A stretch of 64,000 bases of DNA from the NCBI RefSeq assembly GCF_029227915.1, contig NC_079883.1, positions 6,634,001 to 6,698,000 on the forward strand, in the 5' to 3' direction. The translations under genes and the position numbers were made by a program. Shown piece after piece: positions 10,800 through 53,118 of this stretch (positions are counted from its first letter, which is position 1; each line of letters opens with the position of its first letter). Origin of the DNA: Hydractinia symbiolongicarpus (Eukaryota > Cnidaria > Hydrozoa > Anthoathecata > Hydractiniidae). Below the pieces are notes generated by a model, which was not told the DNA's origin, did not search any database, and saw only the letters and a program-made list of their open reading frames with translations.

Positions 10800-11262
10800 A
10801 ATTATAGTGCCCTATAGGTTTTCCCAAAAATCAAAATAATGAGAAAATACATATTTATATTAATATATTTGTTATATATGGCATTGGTTATAGATTGCTT
10901 ATGAGTGAATTACAACCTTAAAGTAGTATCAAATACAATTAAGCTAATCCTTTCTTTTCCTTTTTAAACCTAGTGGTAAACTGTCGAAATTAGATGTTAA
11001 TGCTTTGAAAACCTATTATATAGCAATCTTAGTTTTTCTCCTGATTACAAAGACCACTGTGTAACATAGCAACAGATCTTTTGAACATATAATCTGGCTT
11101 TCACATCAATAGCTTTGTCAATCTGTGATTTTACTTTAAATAAAAATTCAAAGAGAAATAAAAAGCATGTCATGATATGTTTATTATCTGGTTTAACCGT
11201 CTTTGATGCCTGCATAGTTTTAACCAATTAGAATTCACATTCCCCTTTTTCCTTTCATACAG
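10800..11262. other. Intergenic sequence upstream of the glutaredoxin
   Basis: AT-rich with no gene seen. It ends in a pyrimidine-rich tract and AG (11261-11262) that looks like a splice acceptor for the glutaredoxin transcript. Confidence 0.5.
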
Positions 11263-11307
11263 GTACTCAAAATAGGTATCTTCTCTTCTAAAACATCTCC
11301 AGAAATA

Positions 11308-11909
11308 ATGGAAGCTGCTCAAAAGTTTGTTGATGAACAGCTAGCTGTGCATAAAGTGGTGGTCTTTTCCAAAAGTTATTGTCCGTACTGTACAATGGCT
11401 AAAGAAGCGTTGAAGGAGATTAAAGCTGATTATCACCTAATTGAGATAGAAAACAGAAGTGATTGTGATGCAATACAAGACGTGCTTTTAAAAATGACTG
11501 GTGCTAGAAGTGTAAGTATCTATACGCTACAAAACATTTCACAACTGCGCTCATTATTATTATTTTTATTATTATTATTCCATTCCTTTACAGACTTGAT
11601 ATCCATAATGAAATAAATTGACATTTTTTTTTCTTTCCACATACAAAATATATCCATATAATGAGTTATGTGAGCTGTCAACAAAACTGAGAAGTTGATA
11701 TTGATATTCCAATCCTCATAAACGATGCTAACACTTGTTTTCATCCCATCAATTGATGAAAAAAATAGTTTTTATGACTTTTCTTAACGTAATACATTTT
11801 TGTGTTTCAGGTGCCACGAGTGTTTATAAACAAGAAGTGCATTGGTGGAGGTAGTGAAACCAAGGCAATGAAACAATCTGGTGAACTACAAAAATTAATT
11901 GCTGCGTAA
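11308..11909 (+). CDS. GLRX2: Dithiol glutaredoxin, 100 residues, two exons
   Basis: Glutathione-dependent disulfide oxidoreductase. Exons are 11308-11511 and 11811-11909, joined in phase 0 with GTAAGT and TTTCAG borders. The active site is CPYC at residues 25-28 (SKSYCPYCTMAKEAL), followed by the cis-proline motif SVPRVFINKK and the GG motif that binds glutathione (CIGGGSE). At 100 residues it is a normal single-domain glutaredoxin. Upstream, an acceptor-like AG at 11261-11262 precedes 45 bases that stay open in frame with the ATG (beginning VLKIGIFSSKTSPEI). A longer isoform with an upstream exon, possibly a mitochondrial targeting sequence, is therefore possible. GLRX versus GLRX2 cannot be settled from the sequence, but CPYC fits cytosolic Grx1/Grx2 classes. 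Confidence 0.93.
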
Positions 11910-13978: not shown

Positions 13979-15130
13979 TTAAGTTTTACGACAGCACAAA
14001 ATCTCCTTGAAAGCTCTTTTAAATTTTTTATTACCAAAAGCATAACAAATTGGATTTATGAGTGAATTAACATAACAGAAGATATATCCGAAATGCCACC
14101 AATCAGCTGATATGCATGTATCGCAGAATGGCGCAATCACTGCAAACAAATCGTACGGCAGCCAAGTGATAGCGTATGCTAATATGATTAACACTAACAA
14201 GGTCGCTGCTCTCTCGTGGTCCGAAAGACCCCTTCGTTTTTGGTTCACAACAGAACCATTTTTACTTCGGACAGAATAACCTTTAGAAACAGTCGTATCA
14301 TTCTCGGTGTTTTTAGTTGCCGCAAAGTTACTCGTGTTGCATTCTGTTACAGACTGTTCTGTCTTGAGGTCGGTAACTGCAGTCACAGAATTGTATGATT
14401 TATCGCGTATGGAGCCAGCACCAGTGATAGCACTAACCTTTCTCTTGCGCTGTAACAATAAACTGTAGATATTTATGTAAACAATTGAAATAAGGAGGAT
14501 TGGACCGTAGTAGCCGAAGCATGCCGTAATGATCGTAATGTACCAACTCTCATACAAAAATTGAATATAACAGCTATCCACTGGGACGGTACGTTCGCCT
14601 TGAATGAATTGGTAAGAAATAATCCATGGCACCCACAGCAAAAAAGCGAAGATCCAGATAACGACGATGACTTTTTTTACAATGGCATCGGAACGACGAG
14701 AACGGTAAGCGACAGGATATTTAATTGAGAATAATCTGTCAACGGATATGACAACAAGATTCAGAACAGAAGCTTGACAACACCAATAATCCGCACATAA
14801 CCAAAAATCACATAAAACTTCATTTAGTGGCCAGTAACCGTACGCAAGATAGACTGTGTAAAAATTCACTGATATAAGACCAATTACAACATCTGCTGTC
14901 GCCAGAGAAAGAATGAAATAATTCGTCGAGTTTTGCAAATCCGGAGTCCTGAAATACGCCACGAACACTGCTATATTTCCGATGACTGTAAACGCACTGA
15001 GCAAAACCATGGCAACATATATGAACACCATTTGGACATCAGTGTATGTGTCTGCTGCAACAGAAGCAGCGACTGTTGTCGTGGCTGTGCTGTTGATGAA
15101 AGCGTGTGTAGTAGTTGTGATATTCATCAT
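13979..15130 (-). CDS. Muscarinic-acetylcholine-receptor-like class A GPCR, 383 residues, intronless
   Basis: Seven-transmembrane receptor of the aminergic class. The N-terminus is Ser/Thr-rich with N-glycosylation sites (NIT at 3, NST at 13). TM1 has GN (51-52), TM2 has LATAD (D80) and TM3 has the amine-binding Asp D114 in CADYWCC, then DRL at 131-133 in place of DRY. The TM4-loop segment VPWIISYQFIQGERTV and CYIQFL (C187, pairing with C107) closely follows muscarinic receptors. TM6 has ITWLPYD, extracellular loop 3 has FCDTCI and TM7 has FCYVNSLINPICY. The muscarinic Asn after the TM6 Tyr is Asp here (D327) and the TM3 Ser-Asn pair is Cys-Gln, so ligand selectivity is open. The third loop is short (about 80 residues). 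Lack of introns is common for this class. Ligand assignment is inference. Confidence 0.88.
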   Translation of the reverse strand: MMNITTTTHAFINSTATTTVAASVAADTYTDVQMVFIYVAMVLLSAFTVIGNIAVFVAYFRTPDLQNSTNYFILSLATADVVIGLISVNFYTVYLAYGYWPLNEVLCDFWLCADYWCCQASVLNLVVISVDRLFSIKYPVAYRSRRSDAIVKKVIVVIWIFAFLLWVPWIISYQFIQGERTVPVDSCYIQFLYESWYITIITACFGYYGPILLISIVYINIYSLLLQRKRKVSAITGAGSIRDKSYNSVTAVTDLKTEQSVTECNTSNFAATKNTENDTTVSKGYSVRSKNGSVVNQKRRGLSDHERAATLLVLIILAYAITWLPYDLFAVIAPFCDTCISADWWHFGYIFCYVNSLINPICYAFGNKKFKRAFKEILCCRKT

Positions 15131-16609
15131 AACAGATGTTTTTCACTCGTGTATGAAGAAGTTGACGCAGAGTTGTTAGGTCTTTGTCGCTGATATTCAC
15201 GCAAAAACTCGCACGACCGTTGTGATTAGACGTGTACTTTTTCTGAAAAAACTACCAATACAGGTTCTCAGGAAGTAAAATAGGGAAGGAAATAAATTTT
15301 TTATCAGAAATAATAATTTTGCAGCTGTTTACAAAAGAACTGTGTATACACGATTACAATGCTAAACAGCTCGAAGTTTAATTCTTCTTTTAAATTTATT
15401 TTTTATGGCAATCAAAATAGAATTTATTTTCAATATTTTTTTTTTTCAAATGGATACTTTTACACAGCATGGTGGTTACGATCTTGTTTTCGTCCCACCC
15501 AACTCCCCATTTCCCCAATGCGATGGCAAAAAGAACATTTTTAACCTTTTGTTGAGACACAGCTTAGTGTTTTATTTTTGGTTAAAAAGAGATGCTGCGT
15601 GATACTTTAATGTATGAATAATTTAAAGAACGGATTTCTTCAGTACGAACTTTGGCTTTTAAACTTATTTATTTTTTTTAAAAAAGTTTTTTAGGTTTTA
15701 AACTTCGTCGACTTTATTCGAAAATTTAAAATGACGTTAGATGTTAAAACATTTGTCGCGTCTCTGGTATTGGCTAACTGATCATATGTAAACATTCTCT
15801 GACCCTCGTTCCAACGGCTTTCGTCAGCCTTAATTTTTTGTCGGCCCTGATTCCCATCTCCTTCTCAAAATTTTGTCACTAAAGGTGCACCTGTGTAGGA
15901 GATTTGATCGTTGTAAGGTTGGTTTATTCGCAAAGGATAGTTGGTAAAGTAAAACACATCGATTTGGAGATTTCGTTTTTTATTATGAGTACAATAAGTA
16001 AAACACTTACAAACGCAGTGCGATAAAATCTACAAACAGATAAAAACTTTTCAATCTTCTACAAAACCTTTAACAGCTCGTAGCAAAAAATGGTTTTAAC
16101 AAGCGGTACAAATAAAATCGTGAAACACACACCTAATAAAACAAATTCCTGCTCAACTACGCAAAAACAAATTGAATGAATTCTGCTACAATTCGAAGGT
16201 TGGTTTCTATTAACGTCAGTAAATATTGTGCAATTGTTGTGGAGATCGAAAAATCCATCTCTACAACAATTATTGTGTAACATTGCGTTGCTGTTGTACA
16301 ACATGTGTTTCCATTATATTCGTAACGACTACTGCTGTACAGCGGTTGTAGAACAGTTGTTCATATTAACGGAAGCCGACATTTAAGGCTACATATATAT
16401 ACACATACATACAGTGATTATTAATTCTCAAATTTTTAAAAAATTTAACAATATTATACTTACACATCCTAAATACCATATTTTCTCTGATTATCGCTCC
16501 CATAAGGAGGAAAGTTGCTGGAACTTTTTTTCCAAATTGGTACCTGTTTTCAAGCGCGGTGCAAATCAGACGAAACATGATAACTAGGCAACTAAAACGA
16601 ACTACGCCA
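15131..16609. other. Intergenic region between GPCR and CPT1
   Basis: AT-rich with no gene recognised. It includes the GPCR promoter side and the CPT1 3' untranslated region; neither shows a clear landmark. Confidence 0.5.
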
Positions 16610-22600: not shown

Positions 22601-25600
22601 TTAAGGCATGTTTACATTTTTTATAACATATCCATAGAATATTGCCGATGGTTTTTAGTAAGTTTACAAACGATCATTACCATTGCTACCTGATCTTTCC
22701 CACAAAACTTAATTTGCATAAATAAAAAATGGCCTTGCTCTAAGGTCACTCATTTATATTCTGAAAGGTGTATAACTATATAGAAAACATATTTGGTATT
22801 TTTTATCTGCATAGGAATAGAAGAAGCATTGTTGTGCATTTTGAGAATAATCAGAGTGAATTTAGCAAATTATATAAGTTATCCAGAACCACATATTCTA
22901 TGAACTCACCTATATGCATGCATTTGTAGCTTATTAGCCACCTGGTGTATTCCACAGGTCACAGGGCAAAATATAATCAAATATTTTTAGCTTGCTTTTA
23001 ATATTTTTCAATGTTCAACATGCGCAATGATTTTGGTAGCCTTTTTTGGTGATGCAGCACCATAAACACATAAATTCAACTTGCTCTTTCATTAGACTAA
23101 AAGGACCCTGGGACAATGTTGGTATTTCAGTTCCAAAATTACCCACAGGCACATGATGATATGAAAAAAATAAATTAAAAAAACAATTGCCAGTTTATCA
23201 GAAATAATTTTCACACCTATATGGTACCTGTAAAACCATTGTTTAAAGGTGTTTGATAAGCATTTATTATTTTTTGTTTTACCCATCTTTTGTTTCTTTT
23301 AAAGTGACAATTACGGTAACCCCCTAAGGCACATACTCAGCATATTTAAAATATCTCCTCTGCTCGCTACATTAACCCTAACAAATATATATATTCTGAA
23401 AGCCAAATAAATCATCTCTAGAGTGATGATAAAGTATTTCTACAAAAAAAATCCAAAAAGGAGAAAAAAATTTTGTACAAAAATTCACCCTTCCAGTTCA
23501 TTTTGTTGAACACTCCCCTCAGTAAAATTTTTGTTCGTTGAAAAAAATATGACTGCAAAGCTCTTATTCAGCTCTAAAAAACTTTGCTTTTTTCACTTAA
23601 AACAACACATAGTTCCAAAAATATAGCATATTTTGTGTTACAATAGCTGTTTTATGACTGATTTTTCTATTTTTAAGCATGATAGATCAATAACTAGATA
23701 TTTCGTCACCTTCTGCGTTAGAAAAAGCAAAGTTTTGTAGCCAAAGATATAATTGTCGCAACAAACTTGCTTTCGTACAATTTTGAGAAGATGGAGGGGA
23801 GTGTTCGACAAAAATATATACCGTTATGGCTAAAAAATTTATTTCAAGAAAAAGCAAATCAAAGAACTTTGCTTTTACCTGCAAAAATCATGGTTACACC
23901 CACTTAAACTTTATGAATAATTAATAACTCATGAATATTTTATTTAAAATTAAAGGTAAAGTGTTTTTGTAGAACTATGGGTCTAGTTATTGTTATACAG
24001 ACAACAGGATAACATAACATCCAGGATAAAAACGAAAAAAAAATAAGGAATAGGTATAGATGATATCATCATCATCATCATCATTCTCAGCTTAACGTCC
24101 GTTTTCTATGCTAGCATGGGTTGGACAGGGTATATTAATGACCCTCTTCCAATCTGATCTAGACTGTGTTAGATCTAAACTCAACTTCCTCTCTATCAAG
24201 TCTGTCCTTATAACCTCTTGCCAAGTCTTTCTCGGTCTGCCTCTGGGCTTTGCCCCAGGAACTATCAAGTCTCTACACTTTCTTACCCAATTATCCTCCT
24301 CCATTCTTTCCAAGTGCCCCAGCCAATTCAATCTTCTTATCTGGATAACATCTTTAATTCTACAGAGACTTCTTAGCTCATCTGAACTCTTTCTGTCTCT
24401 CAGACTGGCATTACACATCCACCTAACCATTCTCATATCATTCCTTTCTAAACGGTCAAGATCTTCCTGCTTCACTGCCCATGTCTCACTACCGTACAAC
24501 ATAACACTTCTTACACAGGCCTCATACAACCTTCCTTTTACCTCAATTGACAGGACTCTGCTAGTCAATAAAGGAAGTAACTCTCTAAACTTTTTCCAAG
24601 CAGAACCTATCCTGCAAGTAACACTTCTTCCAACACCCCCTTCACTGCTCAACATATCACCTAAGTAACAGAAGTTCTTAACTATCTCTAACGAGCCACT
24701 GTTGTACATCATTAAAGCTGGAAATACTTCATTCTCTATAATCTCACCTTTGCAACGCTTGCATACAAACTGTATGCCAGCTCTTAACCTTCCACTAATA
24801 CTACTGCACTTCTTATGTACCCAATGCTTGCAAGTCTGACAAAAAATTGAGTTACTACCAACCCCTTTCCTGCAAACTCCACAAGGCCACTTTCCAACTA
24901 CAAGGTCACACTTGGCTGCGATGCTACTTATCATGACTTTAGACTTTGCTGTGTTTACCTTCAGCCCTTTCTCTTCTAGTCCTTTCTTCCACTTCTCAAA
25001 CTTTTCAACTAATTCTTCCATCGACTCTGCTATGAGAACCAAATCATCTGCATACAATAACTCCCATGGACAACCTGTTCTGAACTCCATCGACAGCGCT
25101 TCTAAGACTAGAATAAACAACAAAGGACTAAGTACAGAACCCTGATGTACACCAACATTTACACTAAATTCATCACTAAGTGAATCGTTAATCCTGACAC
25201 GACTTCTAGCATTGCTGTACATAGACTGAACCATCGTAACTAGCCACTCATCCACACCTAATTTTCTCATAGCACACCAAATAACTTTACGTGGCACTCT
25301 ATCAAAAGCTTTCTCTAAATATACAAAGGCAAAATAGAGATTCTTCCTCTTTCCTAAATACTTTTCCTGAAGCTGTCTGAGTAAAAATATTGCATCTGTA
25401 GTGCCACGCCCTGGAACAAAACCAAATTGCATCTTATCTATATCAATTCTTTCTCTAAGTAACTTATCAATCACTCTTTCAATAACTTTCACTTTCCTAA
25501 ATACTTTTCCTGAAGCTGTCTGAGTAAAAATATAGCATCTGTAGTGCCACGCCCTGGAACAAAATCAAATTGCATCTTATCTATATCAATTCTTTCTCTA

Positions 25601-28600
25601 AGTAACTTATCAATCACTCTTTCAATAACTTTCATTATTTGATCAACCAACTTCAAACCTCTATAGTTACCCCCTTCTAATGCATCACCCTTGCCCTTGA
25701 AACAATTCACTATTACACTCGATTGCCACTCACTTGGTATAGCACCATCCTTTATAATTTGGTTAGCAAGACTTGTAATAAGCTCAACTCCAATATATCC
25801 AGATGCTTTTACCAAAAAATTATTAGAACAGGATTTATTGTAATTTAAAGTTTTTAAATTTTGTAAGAGTTTGACCATAATATCTAACTGCAGTGAAAAA
25901 TTTTTACTGCAGTTAATTTGTGTGGTCATTTCTTCAGAAAATATTGAACGATTGGCTACTAATAGAGGCAGTTGTACTTAGTGTATAATCTTGAAAATTT
26001 GCATGTTTCCATAAATTCTGGTGCTGAATTTAAATATTTTGGTCATTTGTTAAAAATGATTATAAAATTTCAAGCATATTAACCCGGATCTGAGAATATC
26101 TACCCTGCACAGTAACTGTTTCTAATATCTACCCTCTCAAAACAAAAGGCAAAAAGAGTAAGGGTGTTTTGCTATCAATATATATAAAAAAAGTATTGAA
26201 AAGTTGAAAATTGACAATAATACGAAAAATCAACCTTGTTTCTACGGCATCTTAAACCCTGGACATAATATTTCAACAATATATTTCTTGAAATGACAAA
26301 ACGGTATTACTTGAACAGTACTCTGCAGCAGATGTGTTGCAAAATATTATTTTGGCAAGGGTGTTAAAAATGCCCTGAGTTCCACCTTTCACAATTTCTA
26401 AATAATCCACGACCCAGAAATGTTCGAAAAAGATGATGGATTAAGTGAGACAAAAAGTAGTACCTTTAAGTTTTTGGACCTTAACAAATAACTTAGGTCT
26501 TAAGTCAATTTCCACAAGCTCAGAGTATTACAGGCTAAGAGTATTACAGGCTCTTTACATTTAGTCTCTCAGGGCATCTTTTTCAGGAGAGGCGTGCGCC
26601 TTGGCACACACCTAAATCGTTTCAGGCGTAAAATGCCTGCCACATTTCCAGTTTAATCGGACATGTCCGTGGCTTGTTTAGAACTTTCGTCGGTTAAAAC
26701 GTCCGATAGATTTCCGTCTTGGACGGACACTTTTAGATATCAGAATTATTGAATAGTCCTGGTCCTTGAAATCAACGACCAAGCCTATTCATAGCCAACC
26801 TGACCATCCTAGCTAATTCACCGACTCCTGACTTAGTTAAAAGAACTACATAGACATAAATCTCTTTTGCCTGGCCCCTTCGTCGTTGGTAACCAGGTCT
26901 TACACAAGAAATCCAGCCATGCGGTTCTTAACTAATGCGGAGGTGAATGCCGACCGAGCACGGATGACGCAAGTCTGCAAAACTGCACTTACAGGCGGAA
27001 CAGACAATTTATCATGGATTTAATTGTAGATAATTTCTTCATTTGACGAAACAATTGGAAACCATAGCAGGTCCAAATTTAATGGATTACTTTTCTACTG
27101 CAAAATAAATGCACAACAAAAATTAACCTTAATGCCCGTATCGCAAGTGTTTTACAAAATGGTGAATGAACTTTTGCACGATGGGTGGAAAATAATCACA
27201 CCAAATATCTTTTCAGTTTCAGGTTGAGCGTTCGTGCAGGAATTTCACTTAAAAGACCAATCAATTCTTAAGAAAAACGTTTACAATTATCTCAAAATGT
27301 TAATATTTACGCAAGCAATAGAATGCTCGGGTAACGAGCATTTACACGAGCACTATGCGGGCGCGAGCAATTGCTCGCGACTCATGGCAAGGCCTGAGAT
27401 GGATAGATAGAAAGATAGATATGCATATTTTACATGGCTAGCCTCACAAATATCAAGGGATATAACCTGTCTATTACTTCCAGGAAAGGCCATGGCTTAG
27501 ATGGAGAGTCCTAGAGTATTTAATGCTCATTTTGAGCTACACAGACCCAATTAGGGCCGTTGCTCTACTAGACAACTCCTGGCAACATCCAACAACCCAC
27601 ACAATATGCCATCTCTCCAATTTCCCTCACATGGCATGGGTTAACCTGGGCCTATGGTAACATTTACTCGCCCATGTTGAATCGCCGTCAAAAGGCATTG
27701 AATCCCGGTCTCCCGCACAGAGTACGAGAGCTATAACCACTAATCTACAGCGCTGCTGGGTACGCACTTTACTTACTTTATGCTTTTTATGCGTATTTAG
27801 CAAACTATAACATCATTATATATAGTTCATTCGGTCGATTGATAACTACATTTTAAGGTGTTTTTTTTCATGAAGCAAGTTAGAAAGTTGAAAAATGTTT
27901 TTTTTAAAAATAAAGAAAAACTAGTTTTTTTTTAATGTTTGTGAAGCGTACTCAGAATGATGGGTTGTGTTAATATCTTTTCACCCACCACCTCACCTTT
28001 TGTGTTAATATCTTTTCTGGCCGTTACGTCAGACACATATAGCTTAGTAGCTTAGTGGTAACTCCCACACTTTGTGCGAGACACTAGGGTTCGATTTCTC
28101 TTGGTAGAGATTCAATATGGACAAGTGAATTTCACCATAGCCTAGGGTAACCCAAGCCATGTAAGGAAAATTGGAGAGATGACATACTGTGTGGACTGTT
28201 TGATGTTGCAGGAAGTTGTCTAATAGAGCGTGGACCCTAATTAGGTCTGTGTAGTTTAAAATGAGCATTAAATACTTTAGGACTCCCTATCTAAGCCGTG
28301 GTCTCTCCTTGAAATAATAGACAGGGTATATTCCTTGATATTTGTGAGGCTAACCATGTAAAATATCTATATCTATTGAATACACGAGTTCACAGTTTCT
28401 GCAAACCATTGTTTATATAAATCTTTCTTATGTTACAACTGTAAAGGGGAGTATTTAAAATCTATAAGGGTCATCGTTTAAGAAGTAGACAAATTAAATA
28501 TATTTTCTTTGATTGTTTTATAATATGAATTTATTCACATTCATTTCTTTTTACATGGAATCATTACTTTAAAACGAACTTATTTAAGAATGGGAGGTAA

Positions 28601-36105: not shown

Positions 36106-39100
36106 TTAAGTCATATCTCGAAACCATATTTTTACTAAAATCGGATAATGAATATCGGGTGAATAAAGGTCGTCCTTTAATTTTAACTCTTCGTGCAATG
36201 ACCATATTTCGTCATCATATTTTTCTTCGATTATAACTTCAAATGTGACGGATGCTGACTCGACAAATTTTGATAAAGTTTCCGATCTTTTTGGTGCAAA
36301 GATGATACATATTCCCTTTAATAGATGTATAAAAAAATAAAAATTAATATAAGCAAAAGAAAAAAAGAAATACTTATACTGGTTTGAAATTTCACTAAAC
36401 ACCTTCACATAATGCCATTAATTTTAACTCAACGGAGGATACTTACATTTCGTTTCAGCAGATTTGAAATGGTATGAACAAGATCAAGGTGGACATTCAC
36501 GAAAAACAAACAGTCAGCGCATATCACAACATCAAATGAATTACGTAGTTCGTGTTGTTGTTTGCTGCTCCAAACCAATTGTCTAACAAAAAGTAGAAAA
36601 CATTAATTGAAATGAAGACAAATTAACTTTTTTTACTAAAAAAAAAAAAAAAAAACAGATAAAAGAAAGGGTCAAATGAAAAACAGTGTGTTTTATAATA
36701 TATTCTAATTTGTACAGTAACTTCTGAACAAGTTTTTTCTCCAAAAACTTCTAAAAAAGCAAACTATTTATTAAAATGTTAGTCTTTACAATAATATCGT
36801 CAATATGATAATGAGAGGTTCACCTTACTGACAGGTTGGTTTCTTCAAACATAGATTTGTTCTCCGTAGCAATGACTTCTAAATCTAAACATAAATTGTA
36901 GTTATTACAATGTATATCGTACAACGTTGAAAATTCGACACAATTAGCCGAGTTCCTGTGGAAGAATCCACTTAGTCTCTCATCGAATTTATGTAAGGGA
37001 TATCAAACAAAAACATACAACTTTAAACTTAAATTTTTAAATTTCACAATCCAACCTCGGCTCTTTGTCCCTTTTTTATAACGGGACGGCAAAAAGAGAA
37101 AAAAAGGCCCTGGGATCGAGGTTGCTCACAGTCTGAATTACTTTATATTAACCGTTAAATCCAAAACGTTTGAAAATACAGGCAGGTGCAACAACAAATA
37201 AAACAAAAATGCAAAATGTCTAACAAAACCAAAGGTATATAATAAAAGTTACGTATAAAGCTGAATCTGGTAAAAACTATATACTTGCTTTGCGTATGGT
37301 AGAAGTACACCAGGGGAAAAAAGTATACAAGAAAACTCCGACACCGTAATTCCGACATCGTAAGTCATACACAATAGGTTATTACGAAGTTTCGACAATT
37401 TTCAGTATGTAAAACATCAGACCAAACTCAGCTATTTAATCTATTGCATACAGCAACCCTCCCAAATTTGACACAAAATGTAAGAAATCAACAGTTCACA
37501 ACGCAGAATGAGAATATAAAAACTTGAATAATCTCAGCATGGTGCCCTCTACCACAATATTTTGAAACCATCAAAAGTATCGTAGAGAAGTTCATCTTAC
37601 AACACTTGAAGCAGATGTATCTTTTTATAAACGTACTTATACAGTTGTCTGAATATTTCCTAATTTTAAAGATTTTTGCAGTGAAAAACCTTAGAGATTA
37701 ATATTAATTTACTATTTCTTCAAAACGACTTATAATGCGTTTTCCCAAACCAAAAAAAACTGAAGTCAATAAAAACCTACTTTTGACAGACTGTGTATTA
37801 CCATCAGTCAAAACAACGCTTTTGGCTTTCGTATGAAATGCAACCTGAAAAATAAATTTTTGTGACCATACTGTCATTTTTTATTGCTTTTCGACGAAAA
37901 TATATTCGTGACGTAAAAGCTTTTATGTCTAAGATGGTTGGTCCAGTCATCTGAGTTTAAAAAATGTTGAAATTTGGGAACAGCAAACATGTGAGTAGTA
38001 CCCAAAGTCCTACTGATGATGTTCTACCTGAAGTCCTACTGATGATGTCATACCTCAAGTCCTACTAATGGCGTCATACTGGAAGTCCTACTAATGATGT
38101 CATAGCTGAAGTCCTGCTAATGACGTCATACCTCAAGTCATATTAATGATGTCATACCTGAAATCCTACTGATGATGTCATACCTGAAGTCCTATTGATG
38201 ATGTCATACCTGAAGTCCTGCCAATGAAGTCATACCTGAAGTCCTATTGATGATGTCATACCTAAAGACCTGCCAATGATGTCATACCTGAAGTCCTACT
38301 GATGATGTCATACCTGAAGTCCCATTGATAAGGTCATACCTGAAGTCCTGCCAATGATGTCATACCTGAAGTACTATTGATGATGTCATACCTGAAGTCC
38401 TATTGATGATGTCATACCTGAAGTCCTGCTGATGATGTCATATCTGAAGCCCTGCTGATGATGTCATACCTGAAGTCCTGCTAATGATGTCATACCTCCA
38501 CCCAGCTCACATACAGATTTGTTCCTAAAAAAATGAAAATTATTAACTAACTAATAATAACTTCATTCACCAAAAATTGTAAAAATTGAAATTATGAAAC
38601 ATCTAACCAAATATTCAACCAATACCCACGGCATACACGTGTTCCTTCATAAACAATTTGACTTTTGACCAAAGTTGTTGGAAAGCTAACACCTTTAAAT
38701 TGGTCAAAAATTTGCCTTACTATTTTTGAGAAAAAACCCAAACAGTTTAATAGATTATAAAAAACCCTGTTATTCGCAGTTATTCTCTTTGATGTTAATT
38801 TTTTACACAAAGCAGACAGTGAATAATTATTCCGTTTTAAAGTACGTTGTTCCATCAATGAGTGTAAACAATCGTGTAAGGAAAAACAGAACCCTTTTTA
38901 AGTAGTTCCAAAACATGGGTCAAACATTGAAAATTGGTGCTTACATTCAATAATATTTTTCTCAGCAATTTTGCAGATTTTACTTGCTGATTAACTAGTT
39001 GCTTATACGAAAAATACAGTACTACATTTTAGGCTCGCAACACAAAAAAGAATCAAGGATGACAACACTAATTTTCAATCGCTCTTAAAACTTGATTCCC

Positions 39101-42100
39101 ATTAGGATACCCCCTGGATATTCCCACTAGGATATACGCACTTAGATGCCTAGTGGGGACCTAGCTTAAGTAAACCTTGTAAACGCATCAATATGCTTCT
39201 TTTTCATAAATCCTTTTTTTTTAGCCTCAGCCTCTATATTCTTAACGAATCTCAATTTTGAGCAGAAATACTTTTTAAGATTGAAACAGAGAAAGAAACC
39301 CAATTCGTTAAGAAATCCAATTCACTAAGAACCAACTTAAATAGAAGAGTCGCCCATGTTTAGAAATACAAGTCAGCAAAACAAGTAAAAACTTTAAAAA
39401 TGACAAGAAATCTTCCATCTGTTCATAAACGTTAGCTCCTTTAAACGTCGATATTTTTATAAGAATGTTGGAGATTATTTAGGTGCAAAAATAGAAGAAT
39501 GAACATTTTGTTTTTATCACTTACAGAAAGAGGTCTTTATGTTTGATACAATAAGTAGCCAGTATCTCTTCTGATGGCCATATACCTACACAATAAATTT
39601 TTTTTTATGTTACATTGTTTTCGTGAGTAATACGAAAACAAAAGAAGGATTGGTTTGGCTTGCACTACAATTAATTCTTTTAAAGAAAAAAAAATGAATC
39701 AAAAAGATGAAAATTATATTTTTAAAATGTCTTTGTTCCAACAAAAACAACAAGGAGAAAAAACTGTAATAAAGAAATAATTTAACTAAAAAATCAAATT
39801 TTTTGAAACTAAAGAGAGATTCATCACAGTTGCAAAAGAAAGTCAGACATTTAAACATCTCTTGAAGATGAAAACCTTCATACATCTGATTACATTAAAA
39901 TGTTTAGTTAATCTTCTCTCGTTTTCATCAGCTCTGAAGAAGCCTGACACGAACTTAAGCGTTCAAGTTATTCTGTGGGACAACAAACCGTATGCTTTTA
40001 AGAATGAGGAGGATGGAATAGACGGAATATTCCCAGAGGCACTATCGGCTAACGCTTGTAAAGGTGTAAACTTCGAAGTGAAAAAAAGATTGCTGAGTAC
40101 GGCTGAAGCATTTCAACTGTTTCAATCAAACACACCGTGGGACGTGTTACAACAGTACAACATATCAATAAATGATACTGTAATGTTTGGAGCACACAAA
40201 CAATATTTGAACACGCATAATGGCTTCAAAGATATTTATCTTGGTAAATCTTCAACATTAGTGATTATGGTTGCTCGAGGTCGCATTTCGCTCCCACAAA
40301 ATCTCTACAGAGCTATCACAAAGTCTTGGGTGCTGTTATATCTAATGTTCATCTATACACTGCTGAGTGCATTCATCATTTGGTTTGTGGTATGTTAATT
40401 TTGTTCTCAAACACAATAATGATCTCTAATATATACACGTTTTTCTCAAAACTGAACCAAAAACTAAGTCATTTCCTACTTTCCATTTTAAGGTTTGACC
40501 TGAACTTTTTATTTCAGGAGGTTTGGAGAAATAAAAGCAACTTCCCTTCATCGTTCATTACAGGTTTTGCAAACGGAATATGGTGGTCAACAATAACAAT
40601 GTCAACTGTCGGGTATTTTTATACTTACGCCCAATGATTGGGTCTTTATGATTGACTCAACTGATTGCTGTCCTTAATATCGTTTTTTTAATCTTACATT
40701 AACTGAGTGGCCAGTCCATTTTTATTTTCTCTGGATTTTCCATAACTAAAATATGAATTTCACAAGATTTGTCAAAGTAATCATTAATTTCCACTCAGGC
40801 AGCTCAATAAACTAACGTTCAAATGAGTTCTCTTGGATTAACTAACGTTTTGTTATCAACATTTTTATTCAAGTCTTATCCCACATTTTTATTCTTCACT
40901 CACCTGTTGATATTCTATTCTTAATGCTAGGTATTTTTTCTGTTAACAAGTAATTTTTCGAACGTTTAAAAGCTTATATAATCCTACTGCATAAAAGTAT
41001 TTGGTAGTGTTAAGTAGGACAGAAAAACTTTTTTTTTAAAAAAAAAATAAGTTTTAAATCAATCTATCAGTGGAGATGTGAAATAAAAAAACAAAATCCA
41101 CCTGTTTTTATTTTAGTTGTTGCCTTTAATAAATGGAACAGAAAGATTGTATTGCCTAGAACGATCTCTTTTTATTGCATAAGGATTATATAGGAAGCTA
41201 AATATTTTTCTTCTAGTTATGGTGATATTGTACCTAAGTCTCTACTGGGTCGACTTTTATCAATTATGTGGATTTGGTTAAGTGTACTCTTAATTGCTTG
41301 CATGACAAGCACAATAACAAATTCATTATCATTGCCGATTAATTTGGAAGAAGAAAAGGTAATGTATTGCAACAGAAAATACAGAGATGAAATAAATAAA
41401 TAAATAAGTACACAAAAGAATATTTTACTGTTACCTCTATTAATCAACTGTGATAATCAAGGTATCGACTTTCATGATTTTACGTGACTCTTTTTGACCT
41501 TCTTCAGACTAACATTGACATGAGCAGGATTCTTAAATTCACTTTAAATAACGTCAACATGGAGTCACACATTACAAAATAAAAGTTTAAGCGTCAATTC
41601 TGTTCTTATAATAAACACTGTACCATTAATATACCCAAAAAATTGCATTTAAAATATAACCTCGAAAAAAGAAGCCTATCACATGCTCAGCATACTAATG
41701 CTTCTACATCATCCAGGATTCCAGATTTTTCCAGTCTTCGCAGAAACACTATTGTAATTTGTATTTAGGTTGCCGTGCTTAATAATTCATGGGAACATCA
41801 AGTCATAAAAAAAATCCCAGAAGAAATTTCAGGTGGAGTTGTATTTAATTTTAGTTTTCCTGAAATAGGTAATCATCAAAACTCGATTGGAAACCTGGAT
41901 CATTATTCAAATAAATGATTTATGATTTTTCTAAAACCAGTTTGTAGCATAGAGACTTCGCCCCACCCTTAAGTAGTTTATTGAAGATTGTAGTCGTTAT
42001 CCTGTGGAAAAAATCCAAATCTGCATGTTTCTGTCATCAAGTTGTTTACTCTGCAGGGAAACTTGAATAAATTTCAAACAAACACAATACAGATGTTATT

Positions 42101-45100
42101 AAACATTAGCCTGTAGAAAATTCCACGGGTTTGCCCATCCTTTTTATATCACATTTTGTGTTTCCGTAACACAACCCAATTTTTTTTAAGAATGTGGTCA
42201 CCCTCTAAGTTATATCCTCTTAATTACAAATATTTTTTTAATACAAAATGTACTTTTTTCAGTGGAAGAAACGTATGAAGATGTACTAAATAAAGTTAGT
42301 AAAGACGATTATGTTGGGTTAATGGATTACACCAGAGCCTCTCGAACTCAAGAGGAAATCAGAGAAAAAAATATCAGACTACTCAGCAGCTTCAGCGGTC
42401 AATTTGATTGGGTGTTTCAACTGTCCCATAACAGAACCAATGTTAGTGTTGTTGAAGATTGTTTAGAGAGGATTGGAAGACACGATATAAAAACTATTTT
42501 TGCAGAATATACATCAGTGATTACTTACAACAAATTGGATGATGGAATAGAAAGTTTGGAAACCAACACATCCTTTTTTATGAGCTTATGTATAGGTGGA
42601 ATATTCTTGTTAGGATGTATGTATGATATAGTCAGATACATACTAAAGAAAACTAAAAAAAGAACAGGTATGGTATCTTAAAAGTTGATAAGAAACAGGT
42701 ATTTTAGAATGAGTGATAATAGCTTAGTGAACATAAATGAATAACTGGTTCAACATTTTAGATTAAGTGATAATAAACAACCGAATAAACATGTCAAAAT
42801 GGGTGATACTAACTGAGTGACCATGTTAAATAAGTGATAACAAATGCACAACTATGAAACATCAACAATAGTGAAATACCAAATTATACAATTCCTACAA
42901 CACAAAAAAACATCACATAACGCTGAAGTCATGCTATTGAAAAGTTTTTGTTGTTGATCTTCTTTTTTTGTGTTTTGCTTTTATTGGACACAAGAATAAT
43001 TTTTTTATGGAAAATATTTATTATTAAGACAATTTAGAGCACCCAAATGGGGCCCTCCTAGACCGATGTTTTGAAAAAAATAATTTTCTGAGGAAACAAG
43101 TTCTATTAAAGGGAAATACAGCCTGTCATTCTCTGTGGATAGTATAAATTATTAAGGATTTATTGTAAAAGCTTTTATTTTTATTTATTTTCTTCTTCTT
43201 TTTTATAGCTGAGCTCAATTTGAATCAATCATCTGCATTGAAGTTAGAATTAGCTCAAATACATTTAAAAAAGCGAATTATTTCTTTAAGAGAAGAACTC
43301 AATGACAATCTGACAGAACTCGAGAACATGTTGGATGAAATAGCAATCAAATAACACATACGTTTGTCAAAATATGGATAAAAAATGACAATGATGATTG
43401 AATACACAAAGGAACATAACACTAATAAAATCAAGGAAATATCAAGTGATGAAATAAATTGTTGTATACAATTGTGCACACTGTATTTGAAGAAATATAA
43501 TTCACTAGTTCTGTAGATATGGTATGTGAATAGTGATATTATTTTATACTAGTCGTTAGACTGTGTATACGGGCACTAAATTTATTCCCATTTAAACATA
43601 CATAGCAAAATGTAGCAATTCAACTACAAAATAAATTATAACTATTATTATAAGATATATATCTCTGGCAAAGAAGCTAGCCTATTTAACGTCTGCACGT
43701 TTATATCCAACTGCATATCAAAAACTTCTAAATCACTTTTTAGCTAAACCGGTAGTAATAATAATAACTAACTGGTAGCCTTGTAGTAGAAGCTTCCAGT
43801 ACAGAAGGCCTTGGGTTCAAACCCCGGCTGATTTATGTCAGAGATTATAAAAGTGCGAATCTATCCTCTTTTCCTAACGTTCAGCACGGAAATAGGATTG
43901 ATATCTTAGGCAGTCTGGTTAAGCAATTGCTATGTTTCAATGAGAGCTTCAAATGCAGAACCCTTTTACAGGACTCTCGTTGATAGAAGTACCAATACTG
44001 AAGAGCCTATCCTGTTATGTAATCCTTGCATTACATAACTGCATGTAATGCAATGAAGCTTCTCGAATTGACAAACCTGTCATCTTTTCTAGTATGTCAA
44101 TAATAATGATAAGAAAATACATCAACTAAGTTAGATAATGCAATAATTTTTTATGATTTTTTTTTTTTAAATCCTACAGCTAATTTAGTTGAAGATCTTA
44201 GAAATTTTCAATTTTTTACACAAGCTGCATGTCTTTAAAAAAATACTTACAAACATTGCCAGTATTATTAAATCCCATTAATTCGGCTGCCGTAGTTGGT
44301 ACATTTAACACTCTAAAAACAAATTTATATTTTACAAGACAAACATTATTAGAATGTATAATTATTTTAAGCTTTAGGCTATTAAATGATTGTTTGTCAT
44401 AACGCAACCAATCCAAAGAAAATCTCAACTTCCCTAAAAATTCTACTTTGGAAAAATCACATTTTTAAAATTACTGATACTGATTTGGACATTTCAGCTT
44501 TTAATGCCATTTCTTGTATCACATTTTTCCTCGATTTTTCTAACTTTTTTTTCAAAAGTTGTCAAACAAGCAATAACTATTTAGAAATAGTAACTCTGGC
44601 ATTGTGTAAAACATGAGGTAAATTAATGGGCATCTTTACAGTGGTAACGGGTAACGTAGTAACCTATGATATCTTGTACAAATAATGCTTCATACAAAAA
44701 GGCTTTTTACTAGTAACAATCCTCCATTAACAAACTTCTAAAATTGAACAAATTTATTTTGATGATCACTGAATCTCCCTGCCTTAGGTCACTAGAAACA
44801 AAAAATTTAAAAAGGGATAGGGAAAAAAAATAACAATCACAGGTGAATGTAAGCATTCAGGATGCCTGTAAAATTAGTTGGCTCATAAACATAGACACAA
44901 GCAAGATCCCTAAGAACAAGACAACTACAAAAGAACCACAATTACATTTTAAATATTTAAGCTTATAGGAAGTGAAGCACTTTAAACGCTCTAAACACAA
45001 TCTAATGCAGGACAAGTTATCATAACTAGGCATAAAAATTACTGCAAATAATAGGTTTTTCCCAATAGAATGATTTACGAGGGTTTTAAGGTCGGTCAGA

Positions 45101-50476: not shown

Positions 50477-51781
50477 TTAAAAATAAAATAACAAAGTTGG
50501 TATTTGTCCTTCATCATAACTTGTGCCATTTGTTGAATCACTGCTGTTTTCAAACACAAAATTTACCCCTTCTTCTGTAACTTCTTGTCTTCCATCATCA
50601 CCAGCAAATGATGGTGGACCATCAAGCAAGACAGATATGTCATAGAAGGTGTTTTCTTTTATTCGCAGAGGATCTTCAAGTAATATTTCATGTACGGGTG
50701 GATTGTCCATGGTATTTAAATCTGGATCTGGTGGGCACATAAATACAGACGAGTTTGTGTAAACTGTATCATCGTCAATACTAACTTTCAACTGAAGAGA
50801 GTACTCTCCACCGCTTGGAGAACCGTATAATCCAATACCAGTTAAAAAGATTTCTTGATCAACTTTAAAGCGAATCGCATCAGTATCCTTTTCATCATAC
50901 CTCCACAAATAATTTTTCATAGGTTTTACATAACGTGAGCATTTATGAGGTTTAAACGAGCGAACTTTTAAAGGGTATTTTAGACTGCTGATTGCCAATC
51001 CTGAGTTTAAATAAATAAAAATTAACTTTATATCCTCTAATGGTAATAGATCAGATCTTGCTGGTCCTAAAGCAAAATCTTTAGCAGACATAACAGGAAA
51101 TCGAATTAGATAAATAATATCCTTCAACACACTTCTTTGATTTTGGGTATTTACTTCTAAGGATTGTCTTGAACATTCTTTTTCAGCCCATTTTTTAATT
51201 GCATTAAACACATCAATTTCTGAAACGTCAAGACAATCTTTTTGAAGAATGTTTGTTAATAGTTGTTTATCCACATCAGCAAATGAGTCAGACAGTATTA
51301 TTTCAGACGTTTTTCGTGATAAAATAGACCAGCAATGCTTTTCCAAACGTTTTTCACCAAAACACACTGCAGCGTTTAAAACATCAAGAACGTTTTCAGT
51401 TTGAACATTTTCTAATAAATAATTAACACACTCTTTTGACAACACTGGGACAATATATTTATTTGCTAAGTACAACACGTCAAGAACATTTCCGGAATTT
51501 AAATTCACTTGATCATAGTAGATAAACCGCAGCAATTCCCAAAAGGCTTCAGATTCACAATCGTCTATAGATATCGTCTCGTCTTTAGCAAAATCTCCAT
51601 AGAGCATGGCAAAAAAAACAGGACTTGAAGTTCCTAATACATACTTGTGTGCAGGAATGATTTTCTTTGTTTCTCCTTGTTTTCCAACGTTAAATTGTAT
51701 ATCACTGATCAATTTATTTCCAAACATATATTCATTTCTTTCTCGTACATTTGTTTTTGTGGTTTGCCAGTGGCTAGACAT
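50477..51781 (-). CDS. BTBD6: BTBD6-like BTB-BACK-PHR protein, 434 residues, single coding exon
   Basis: Cullin-3 substrate-adaptor family. It starts MSSHWQTTKTNVRERNEYMF, the usual N-terminal block before the BTB domain of BTBD1/2/3/6. The BTB domain (about 24-128) contains SDIQFNVG, IPAHKYVLGTSSPVFFAMLY and LLRFIYYDQVNLN. BACK follows (about 133-240; YIVPVLSKECVNYL, FNAIKKWAEKECSRQ, RFPVMSAKDFA). The C-terminal PHR beta-sandwich (about 285-434) contains WRYDEKDTDAIRFKVD, LTGIGLYGSPSGGEYS, FENSSDSTNGTSYDEGQIP and LLFYF. Length and order match the family. Vertebrate orthologues have introns here; a single coding exon is seen. The exact member (BTBD3 or BTBD6) is uncertain. Confidence 0.9.
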   Translation of the reverse strand: MSSHWQTTKTNVRERNEYMFGNKLISDIQFNVGKQGETKKIIPAHKYVLGTSSPVFFAMLYGDFAKDETISIDDCESEAFWELLRFIYYDQVNLNSGNVLDVLYLANKYIVPVLSKECVNYLLENVQTENVLDVLNAAVCFGEKRLEKHCWSILSRKTSEIILSDSFADVDKQLLTNILQKDCLDVSEIDVFNAIKKWAEKECSRQSLEVNTQNQRSVLKDIIYLIRFPVMSAKDFALGPARSDLLPLEDIKLIFIYLNSGLAISSLKYPLKVRSFKPHKCSRYVKPMKNYLWRYDEKDTDAIRFKVDQEIFLTGIGLYGSPSGGEYSLQLKVSIDDDTVYTNSSVFMCPPDPDLNTMDNPPVHEILLEDPLRIKENTFYDISVLLDGPPSFAGDDGRQEVTEEGVNFVFENSSDSTNGTSYDEGQIPTLLFYF

Positions 51782-53118
51782 TTTAAGTTTATGAGTGTGT
51801 TCTTTTAAACAGCACTTTGCACTACTTTATCTAAAAATATAAAATATTGAAGTGTCAACAGGTCTTAGCAATAACATGAGAAAAATGTTGTATCGCAGTG
51901 TAAAATGTAACAGGTACCAACATTTCTTATTTATTGTATTTTTTCGTAACTGTCTTCTCTACAAGTACACAGTTGTAAAAATTCAATCATTTAAAATCTT
52001 ATTTAGCAAGTTTTCCTTCCAACATTTACACTAACGAAAGGTTGAACGAACAACACATTGCACTAGCGCAAATTTCTTGCTCTACTGGAATTTAACCTTT
52101 CAATGTACTGGTTGGCATGGATATTTTTTAATACTTCCTTCGTATATTCTACTCAGCACTTGATTAGGATACAATTAAAATCACTCCAAGAAGATCACAA
52201 TGTTCGTATAACTTCATCCATCGTCTTACAAGTCAGAGCTATGCATGCAGTGTAATGTAACATATCAACAAAATATGTATGAACCAAGTTGACTTTTTTT
52301 CGATAATGGTGGCGACCGTTTGAACATATTTGTCCAAAAGGTCGCCTAACGGTTTAAAATTTGGACATAAAAAAATGCTAAAATTTAATAATTATTATGC
52401 CATGTTGTTTTCATGATATGCAAAAATGTTCTCATTGCAAAAAACATATATTTTTTTGTTAGTTCTCCTTTAAAGAAAGAAAGAAAAAATCTAACAAGTA
52501 AATATTTAATTAGATAACTATTTTGCTTTGCGAATAAAAGAAAATTTTATCTCAAGCCTTCTAGAGACCTGGGACATTTGGAAACAACTTGAGACATCTC
52601 AAACTGCAAGTTGTGAACTACTTCCTTACATAGAGTGATAATGACTAACAACAATACCCCTTCAAGAAGGAAAATATTAGCATCTCTACCATGCTGTTAT
52701 AAAAGATAGTATAGTTATTATCTTTCAGATCAACAGAAAAAAAAACAGATTCAAACAAATATAAAGTAATAACACACTCACAGTATTAGGAAATATTATA
52801 AATTAATATGTTAAGAATTATATATATCATGTATATATTAATTATATTAAAATAGAAACCAAACAGTTGATAGTTTAACATTTACTACTAAAAATAAATA
52901 ACTTTTGGTACAACACGAACATTCAAAATCGATATTTAGATTCATACTTCCATTTTTAAGAGAAAAAAGAAATGCAAGTTAAGCGAAATTTAACTTCAAT
53001 AATTAGGAAAGCATGTACTGAATGCAGCTATCTAGATCAAAAGAAAACTCAATAAATTAGAATAGATTTTCCAGCTTTATTCTGAATTATTATTTACTTT
53101 ATTGAAAATAATTACATG
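51782..53118. other. Intergenic stretch with a repeat copy
   Basis: No gene. It holds repeat copy B at 52236-52490 (matching 47820-48060) and is otherwise AT-rich. Confidence 0.5.
52236..52490. repeat. Interspersed repeat, copy B (matches 47820-48060)
   Basis: Same landmarks as copy A, plus an extra internal hairpin: GCGACCGTTTGAACATA opposed by AAAAGGTCGCCTAACGG (about 52312-52350), which copy A lacks or has decayed. Confidence 0.65.

Follow-up and report, generated by a model that had tools for sequence, protein, structure and literature searches.

What kind of channel is encoded by the six-exon gene on the forward strand of a 64,000-nucleotide stretch of Hydractinia symbiolongicarpus DNA (contig NC_079883.1, positions 6,634,001 to 6,698,000; hereafter the window)? 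A first-pass annotation made from the letters alone had described an ionotropic glutamate receptor (iGluR) carrying a potassium filter, and the corresponding RefSeq protein of the same species (P0001, 352 aa) is named 'potassium voltage-gated channel subfamily A member 2-like isoform X2'. Our analysis suggests a ligand-gated channel of GluR0/iGluR build that is likely K+-selective, as predicted from the order signal peptide-S1-M1-TVGYGD-M3-S2-M4, in which S1 and S2 are the two halves of the ligand-binding domain; we place the probability of this reading at about 0.6. The gene structure, the filter motif, the family to which the protein belongs and the confident predicted fold of one relative (P0002) are directly supported.

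The six exons (39868-43354, +) are joined by five GT-AG junctions into a single open frame of 469 codons. All residues of P0001 (169 + 183 = 352/352) are identical to the window protein, beginning at window residue 106 with a start inside exon 1, which agrees with the cnidarian origin assumed in the first-pass annotation. Exons 2 and 3 are both whole in P0001, so that the skipping named beforehand as speaking against the first model is not seen in this RefSeq model, and exon 1 gave a tblastn match to P0002 residues 30-178 (E 4e-10 within the window). At the end of exon 4, P0001 lacks the 12 residues GGVVFNFSFPEI found in the first model, consistent with a donor after 41832 and a protein of 457 aa. 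The 36 bases concerned are open in reading frame, followed by GT and absent from P0001; they probably represent an alternative donor or a misprediction, and the true end of exon 4 probably lies 36 bases before the one first drawn. Since the short form suits 13 relatives in length (gaps of about 1 residue, versus about 11 residues in excess for the long form), the protein of 457 aa is to be preferred.

In the spliced frame, the pore sequence STITMSTVGYGDIVPKSLLG holds TVGYGD, which confirms the potassium-channel signature reported before. An exon junction is indeed present in the filter, but it splits the Gly206 codon (GG/T, phase 2) instead of lying between G206 and Y207. The order signal peptide-S1-M1-pore-second helix (M3)-S2-M4 was upheld, as was the absence of an amino-terminal domain, which the relatives also lack. 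In addition to its signal peptide, the window protein shows three regions of high hydropathy, and the M4 that had been claimed follows S2 both in this protein and in 13/13 relatives (helix 392-423 in the P0002 model). A basic stretch, KKTKKR, stands directly after M4, as expected for the cytoplasmic side. A bilobed ligand domain divided in sequence by the pore is a feature of the iGluR superfamily, and S1/S2 arranged around two helices and a K+-type filter is one of GluR0-type (Group 1) channels; both are found here. The SYTANLAA gate motif of iGluRs (described in an excerpt of PMC3483616) was found at the M3 gate of neither the window protein (CMTSTITNSLS) nor the family (e.g. VMTATMTDVVS and VYTATLTNVVT).

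Table 1. Exons and protein features of the channel gene (window positions)
Feature	Position	Strand	Remarks
Exon 1	39868..40389	+	Start codon, signal peptide, S1 lobe, M1; frame and donor
Exon 2	40518..40612	+	Pore helix, first half of filter; whole in RefSeq P0001
Exon 3	41217..41358	+	Remaining filter, M3, start of S2; whole in RefSeq P0001
Exon 4, short form	41769..41832	+	Implied by RefSeq P0001; length suits 13 relatives
Exon 4, extra 36 bases	41833..41868	+	GGVVFNFSFPEI; kept in the earlier model; intron or alternative exon end
Exon 5	42263..42667	+	Most of S2, M4, start of cytoplasmic tail
Exon 6	43209..43354	+	Charged predicted cytoplasmic tail and stop; identical in P0001
Filter codons T204, V205, first two bases of G206	40605..40612	+	
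Filter codons, last base of G206, Y207, G208, D209	41217..41226	+	
Signal peptide, residues 1-22 (approximate)	39868..39933	+	Hydropathy peak at residues 5-23
S1 ligand-binding half, residues 30-152	39955..40323	+	Profile of 13 relatives
M1 helix, residues 153-174	40324..40389	+	Hydropathy peak 155-173; helix in P0002 model
M3 helix, residues 219-245	41254..41334	+	Hydropathy peaks; helix 218-247 in P0002 model
M4 helix, residues 380-401 (457-aa form)	42577..42642	+	Hydropathy peak 1.93 at 380-398

Does this gene stand alone? Protein searches revealed 13 relatives spanning S1 to M4 (P0002, P0003, P0031, P0032, P0054-P0056, P0057 and P0058-P0062), and TVGYGD is present in 13/13 of them. Another cnidarian is represented among them, P0057 being assigned by NCBI to Clytia hemisphaerica; P0002 bears a TCONS identifier that we take to be Clytia's, and its organism is probably Clytia. 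The record of P0003 begins near S1 and contains no clear signal peptide. In the phylogenetic tree, the 13 relatives and the window member formed one branch (SH-aLRT 100). With a profile of the 13 relatives, and with the signal peptide, pore and M4 left out of the scored pieces, S1 (residues 30-152) reached 43.9 bits and S2 (246-372) 28.7 bits, against 5.0 and 6.6 for the best of 500 shuffles each; wider S1 and S2 pieces gave 45.6 and 28.3 bits versus 5.6 and 8.4. The statement that this is not a chance frame therefore holds, and a chance splice was rejected on the basis of these scores, the alignment of relatives and the identity to P0001. Another explanation would be that exons of a K+ channel and of a receptor had been wrongly joined by gene prediction or assembly. 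The sequence does come from a single assembly, but each of the 13 relatives shows the identical order within one protein, and these exons are also joined in the RefSeq model, which leaves such an artefact almost no probability.

No paralogue was detected within the window by tblastn (best match outside the gene, E 0.57). Two relatives differ in construction: in P0057 about 115 residues of a TTTTPS-rich repeat separate the signal peptide from S1, and P0054 is one 466-aa protein on a 12.8 kb contig, which, if it was called without splicing, would be intronless, unlike the window gene.

Could the RefSeq name be correct, and the gene encode a Kv-type voltage-gated K+ channel? Apart from the name, the best 60 of 385 matches in the PDB might suggest so, being nearly all Kv, KCNQ and other K+ channels after the top match Lmo2059. 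However, these matches are confined to about residues 136-265, which is the pore, Pfam Ion_trans was matched only at positions 129-232 of 241, and the match of the family to a profile built from 11 K+ channels spans 93 columns, again the pore. Neither a voltage sensor nor a T1 domain was found in the window protein by Pfam or hydropathy. The Kv reading was rejected because the match covers the pore only, and we give it hardly any credence. A pore helix and TVGYGD are common to Kv channels and the window protein, whereas Kv channels have a voltage sensor and the opposite orientation to that predicted here. The NCBI names of P0001 and P0057 give no sign that a receptor build had been recognised.

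Structure prediction was consistent with a ligand-gated build. The predicted fold of P0002 is confident and contains both lobes, so the bilobed ligand domain that had been expected of a structure prediction was seen, in the model of a relative of the window protein. AMPA and NMDA receptors were the best whole-chain Foldseek matches of this model, and the GluR0 core was among the closest folds. A PDB profile search with S1-S2 constructs gave no match up to E 10, and the PDB is thus out of reach by sequence alone.

To which receptors is the family closest? Bacterial and archaeal genomes were scanned with the family alignment using two patterns (filter motif and S1 motif), and among the loci listed the best 80 were taken by family likeness; in 68 of them the filter stands mid-way in an open reading frame (ORF) of 340-415 aa. 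As one scan pattern was the filter and the ranking was family likeness, the bacterial rows owe both their filter and their closeness to the family in part to selection. SBP_bac_3 was matched in 68/82 rows (68 bacterial, P0001 and 13 relatives) and in none of the window protein, P0001 and the 13/13 relatives, so the 68 matching rows are the bacterial ones, and these have the GluR0 build. The strongest profile match of the family was to the bacterial profile (270 columns, E 2.6e-39), and that to a GluK2 and GluN1 profile was weak (145 columns, E 7e-7). For the N-terminal piece before M1, the match to the bacterial counterpart reached 93.6% versus 0.35% for the eukaryotic one, and bacterial versus eukaryotic pieces reached 98.4%. 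On the other hand, an M4-like segment was found in 1/68 bacterial rows versus 13/13 relatives and the window protein. The eukaryotic iGluR architecture claimed by the first-pass annotation is retained for the layout with M4, whereas in sequence the family is nearer to the bacterial GluR0 type than to GluK2 and GluN1, the mammalian iGluRs used for comparison. It follows from the profile matches and the distribution of M4 that the window gene, as judged from its sequence, encodes a channel of GluR0 type that also has the fourth helix known from eukaryotic receptors.

GluR0-type Group 1 channels, as outlined in part of PMC2950845, likewise combine S1-M1-TVGYGD pore-M3-S2 with a K+ filter and a bilobed solute-binding fold, but they match SBP_bac_3 and mostly lack M4, whereas the hydrozoan family has M4 and no SBP_bac_3 match. 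Eukaryotic iGluRs (GluK2 and GluN1) have the M4 topology in common with this family and, unlike it, possess SYTANLAA and an amino-terminal domain and no K+ filter. AvGluR1 of the rotifer Adineta vaga has likewise been described as an animal receptor that is built like an iGluR, crosses the membrane four times and bears a filter motif of the K+ type (excerpts of PMC3483616, PMC11479355 and PMC12332018); compared by description, the hydrozoan family differs from it in having no amino-terminal domain and in not keeping the GluR0-type S1 arginine.

With regard to origin, a tree test in which the window member was excluded for its long branch and two eukaryotic rows were used did not reject the grouping of the family with the two mammalian iGluRs (p-AU 0.686), and the tree with this grouping scored 5.84 log units above the freely searched tree. 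In view of the long branches and the two eukaryotic rows, the family may be a relic, may have been transferred from bacteria or may be a strongly altered iGluR.

Several observations weigh against a ligand-gated and K+-selective channel. With respect to structure, the confident model is that of P0002, a relative 23-26% identical to the window protein; the whole-chain Foldseek TM-scores are low (0.31-0.39 by query length); and the 50 VIA matches listed are solute-binding domains and GluR0 cores, with no eukaryotic receptor among them. A first AF2 model, built on a 5-row alignment, was poor (pLDDT 44) and was not used. With respect to sequence, the window protein scored 17.0 bits against Pfam Lig_chan (cut-off 30.8, passed by 6/13 relatives), the C-terminal piece after M3, including M4, matched both its bacterial (21%) and eukaryotic (6%) counterparts weakly, and 3/10 glycosylation sequons fall in predicted cytoplasmic parts, so that the sequons are no proof of topology. 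The window protein is also the most divergent member of the family (longest end branch, 2.14), keeping 35/58 columns that are invariant in the 13 others and, in S2, only 7/19. At the ligand site, the GluR0-type S1 arginine is present in 60/68 bacteria, R in 0/13 relatives and H in the window protein, in a region where the S1 alignment is uncertain (9/13 relatives have R five columns further), and the S2 aspartate is present in 65/68 bacteria and 0/13 relatives, the window protein having D. Both residues belong to the ligand site of GluR0-type channels. Finally, AvGluR1 carries the filter motif yet passes Na+, according to a passage of PMC3483616.

The divergence and the unretained ligand residues are what would be expected if ligand binding had been lost, the product then serving as a constitutive K+ leak or as a regulatory subunit, or the gene being in decay in Hydractinia. 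This is quite improbable in our view, given that the six exons contain no stop or frameshift, the filter is intact and both lobes are present in the predicted fold of P0002. Under the ligand-gated reading, because the GluR0-type arginine is not kept, 'glutamate receptor' denotes the build and not the ligand. Since the typical GluR0-type binding-site residues are not kept in the relatives, the ligand may plausibly be something different from the standard amino acids.

The case of AvGluR1 bears on the filter. It is described as K+-selective in part of PMC11479355, and owing to these conflicting accounts TVGYGD alone is no proof of selectivity. A channel of the same build could be permeant to Na+ as well as K+ in spite of its motif, and would then be depolarising like ordinary iGluRs. 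We consider this unlikely, although less so than a loss of ligand binding: besides AvGluR1 in that account, GluR0 is also described as K+-selective, and TVGYGD occurs in 13/13 relatives and in the bacterial rows (the bacteria having been found by a pattern that includes the motif). K+ selectivity of the window channel is therefore likely as far as its sequence indicates.

If the ligand-gated reading is correct, the signal peptide would put S1, and hence S2, outside the cell, and four subunits would form one pore. The filter would lie toward the cytoplasm, with the pore entering from inside, the inverse of an ordinary K+ channel; pore entry from the cytoplasm is reported for GluR0 (PMC13099474). 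A ligand would shut the extracellular S1/S2 clamshell, the resulting pull on M3 would open the pore, and K+ efflux would hyperpolarise the cell. A wider and more tentative proposal, which we think has somewhat less than an even chance, is that hydrozoans possess a multi-gene family of bacterial-type K+-selective chemoreceptor channels that gained M4, are inverted and directly inhibitory in response to a non-standard ligand, and are either a relic of a time when iGluRs still had the K+ filter or a bacterial acquisition.

Channels of this kind are already known, as GluR0 in bacteria and AvGluR1 in a rotifer. A 2010 survey, in the part available, reported the combination of a glutamate site with a K+ filter only in bacteria (PMC2950845), and iGluRs have been proposed, in an excerpt of PMC12332018, to derive from K+ channel pores fused to sensing domains. 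The accessible portions of two metazoan iGluR phylogenies contain no mention of such a cnidarian receptor, and among the titles and abstract openings listed in searches of open-licence PMC papers none describes this family. In the excerpts concerned, Lig_chan is named in the methods only (PMC12225738), and gene ontology terms for iGluR signalling appear in Hydractinia 'Neuron type B', the window gene not being named (PMC12464821).

Elsewhere in the window, a minisatellite (38005-38497; 26-base unit, 19 copies) precedes the channel gene at a distance of about 1.4 kb. The ORF at 24095-25564 (-) matches a reverse transcriptase and a PHD finger and is probably a retroelement, with a 143-base tandem duplication (25349-25634) at its upstream end. 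Other ORFs encode a rhodopsin-family G protein-coupled receptor (13982-15142, -; 387 aa, unbroken from stop to stop), a BTB-BACK-PHR protein (50480-51826, -) and a glutaredoxin, as an ORF or exon (11224-11613, +). No tRNA and no Rfam match was found in the window.

A receptor with both M4 and a K+ filter would be intermediate between bacterial and animal receptors. With family members in Hydractinia and Clytia, its ligand, selectivity and cell type are open to direct testing, and K+ conduction would make the channel an inhibitory receptor of iGluR build.

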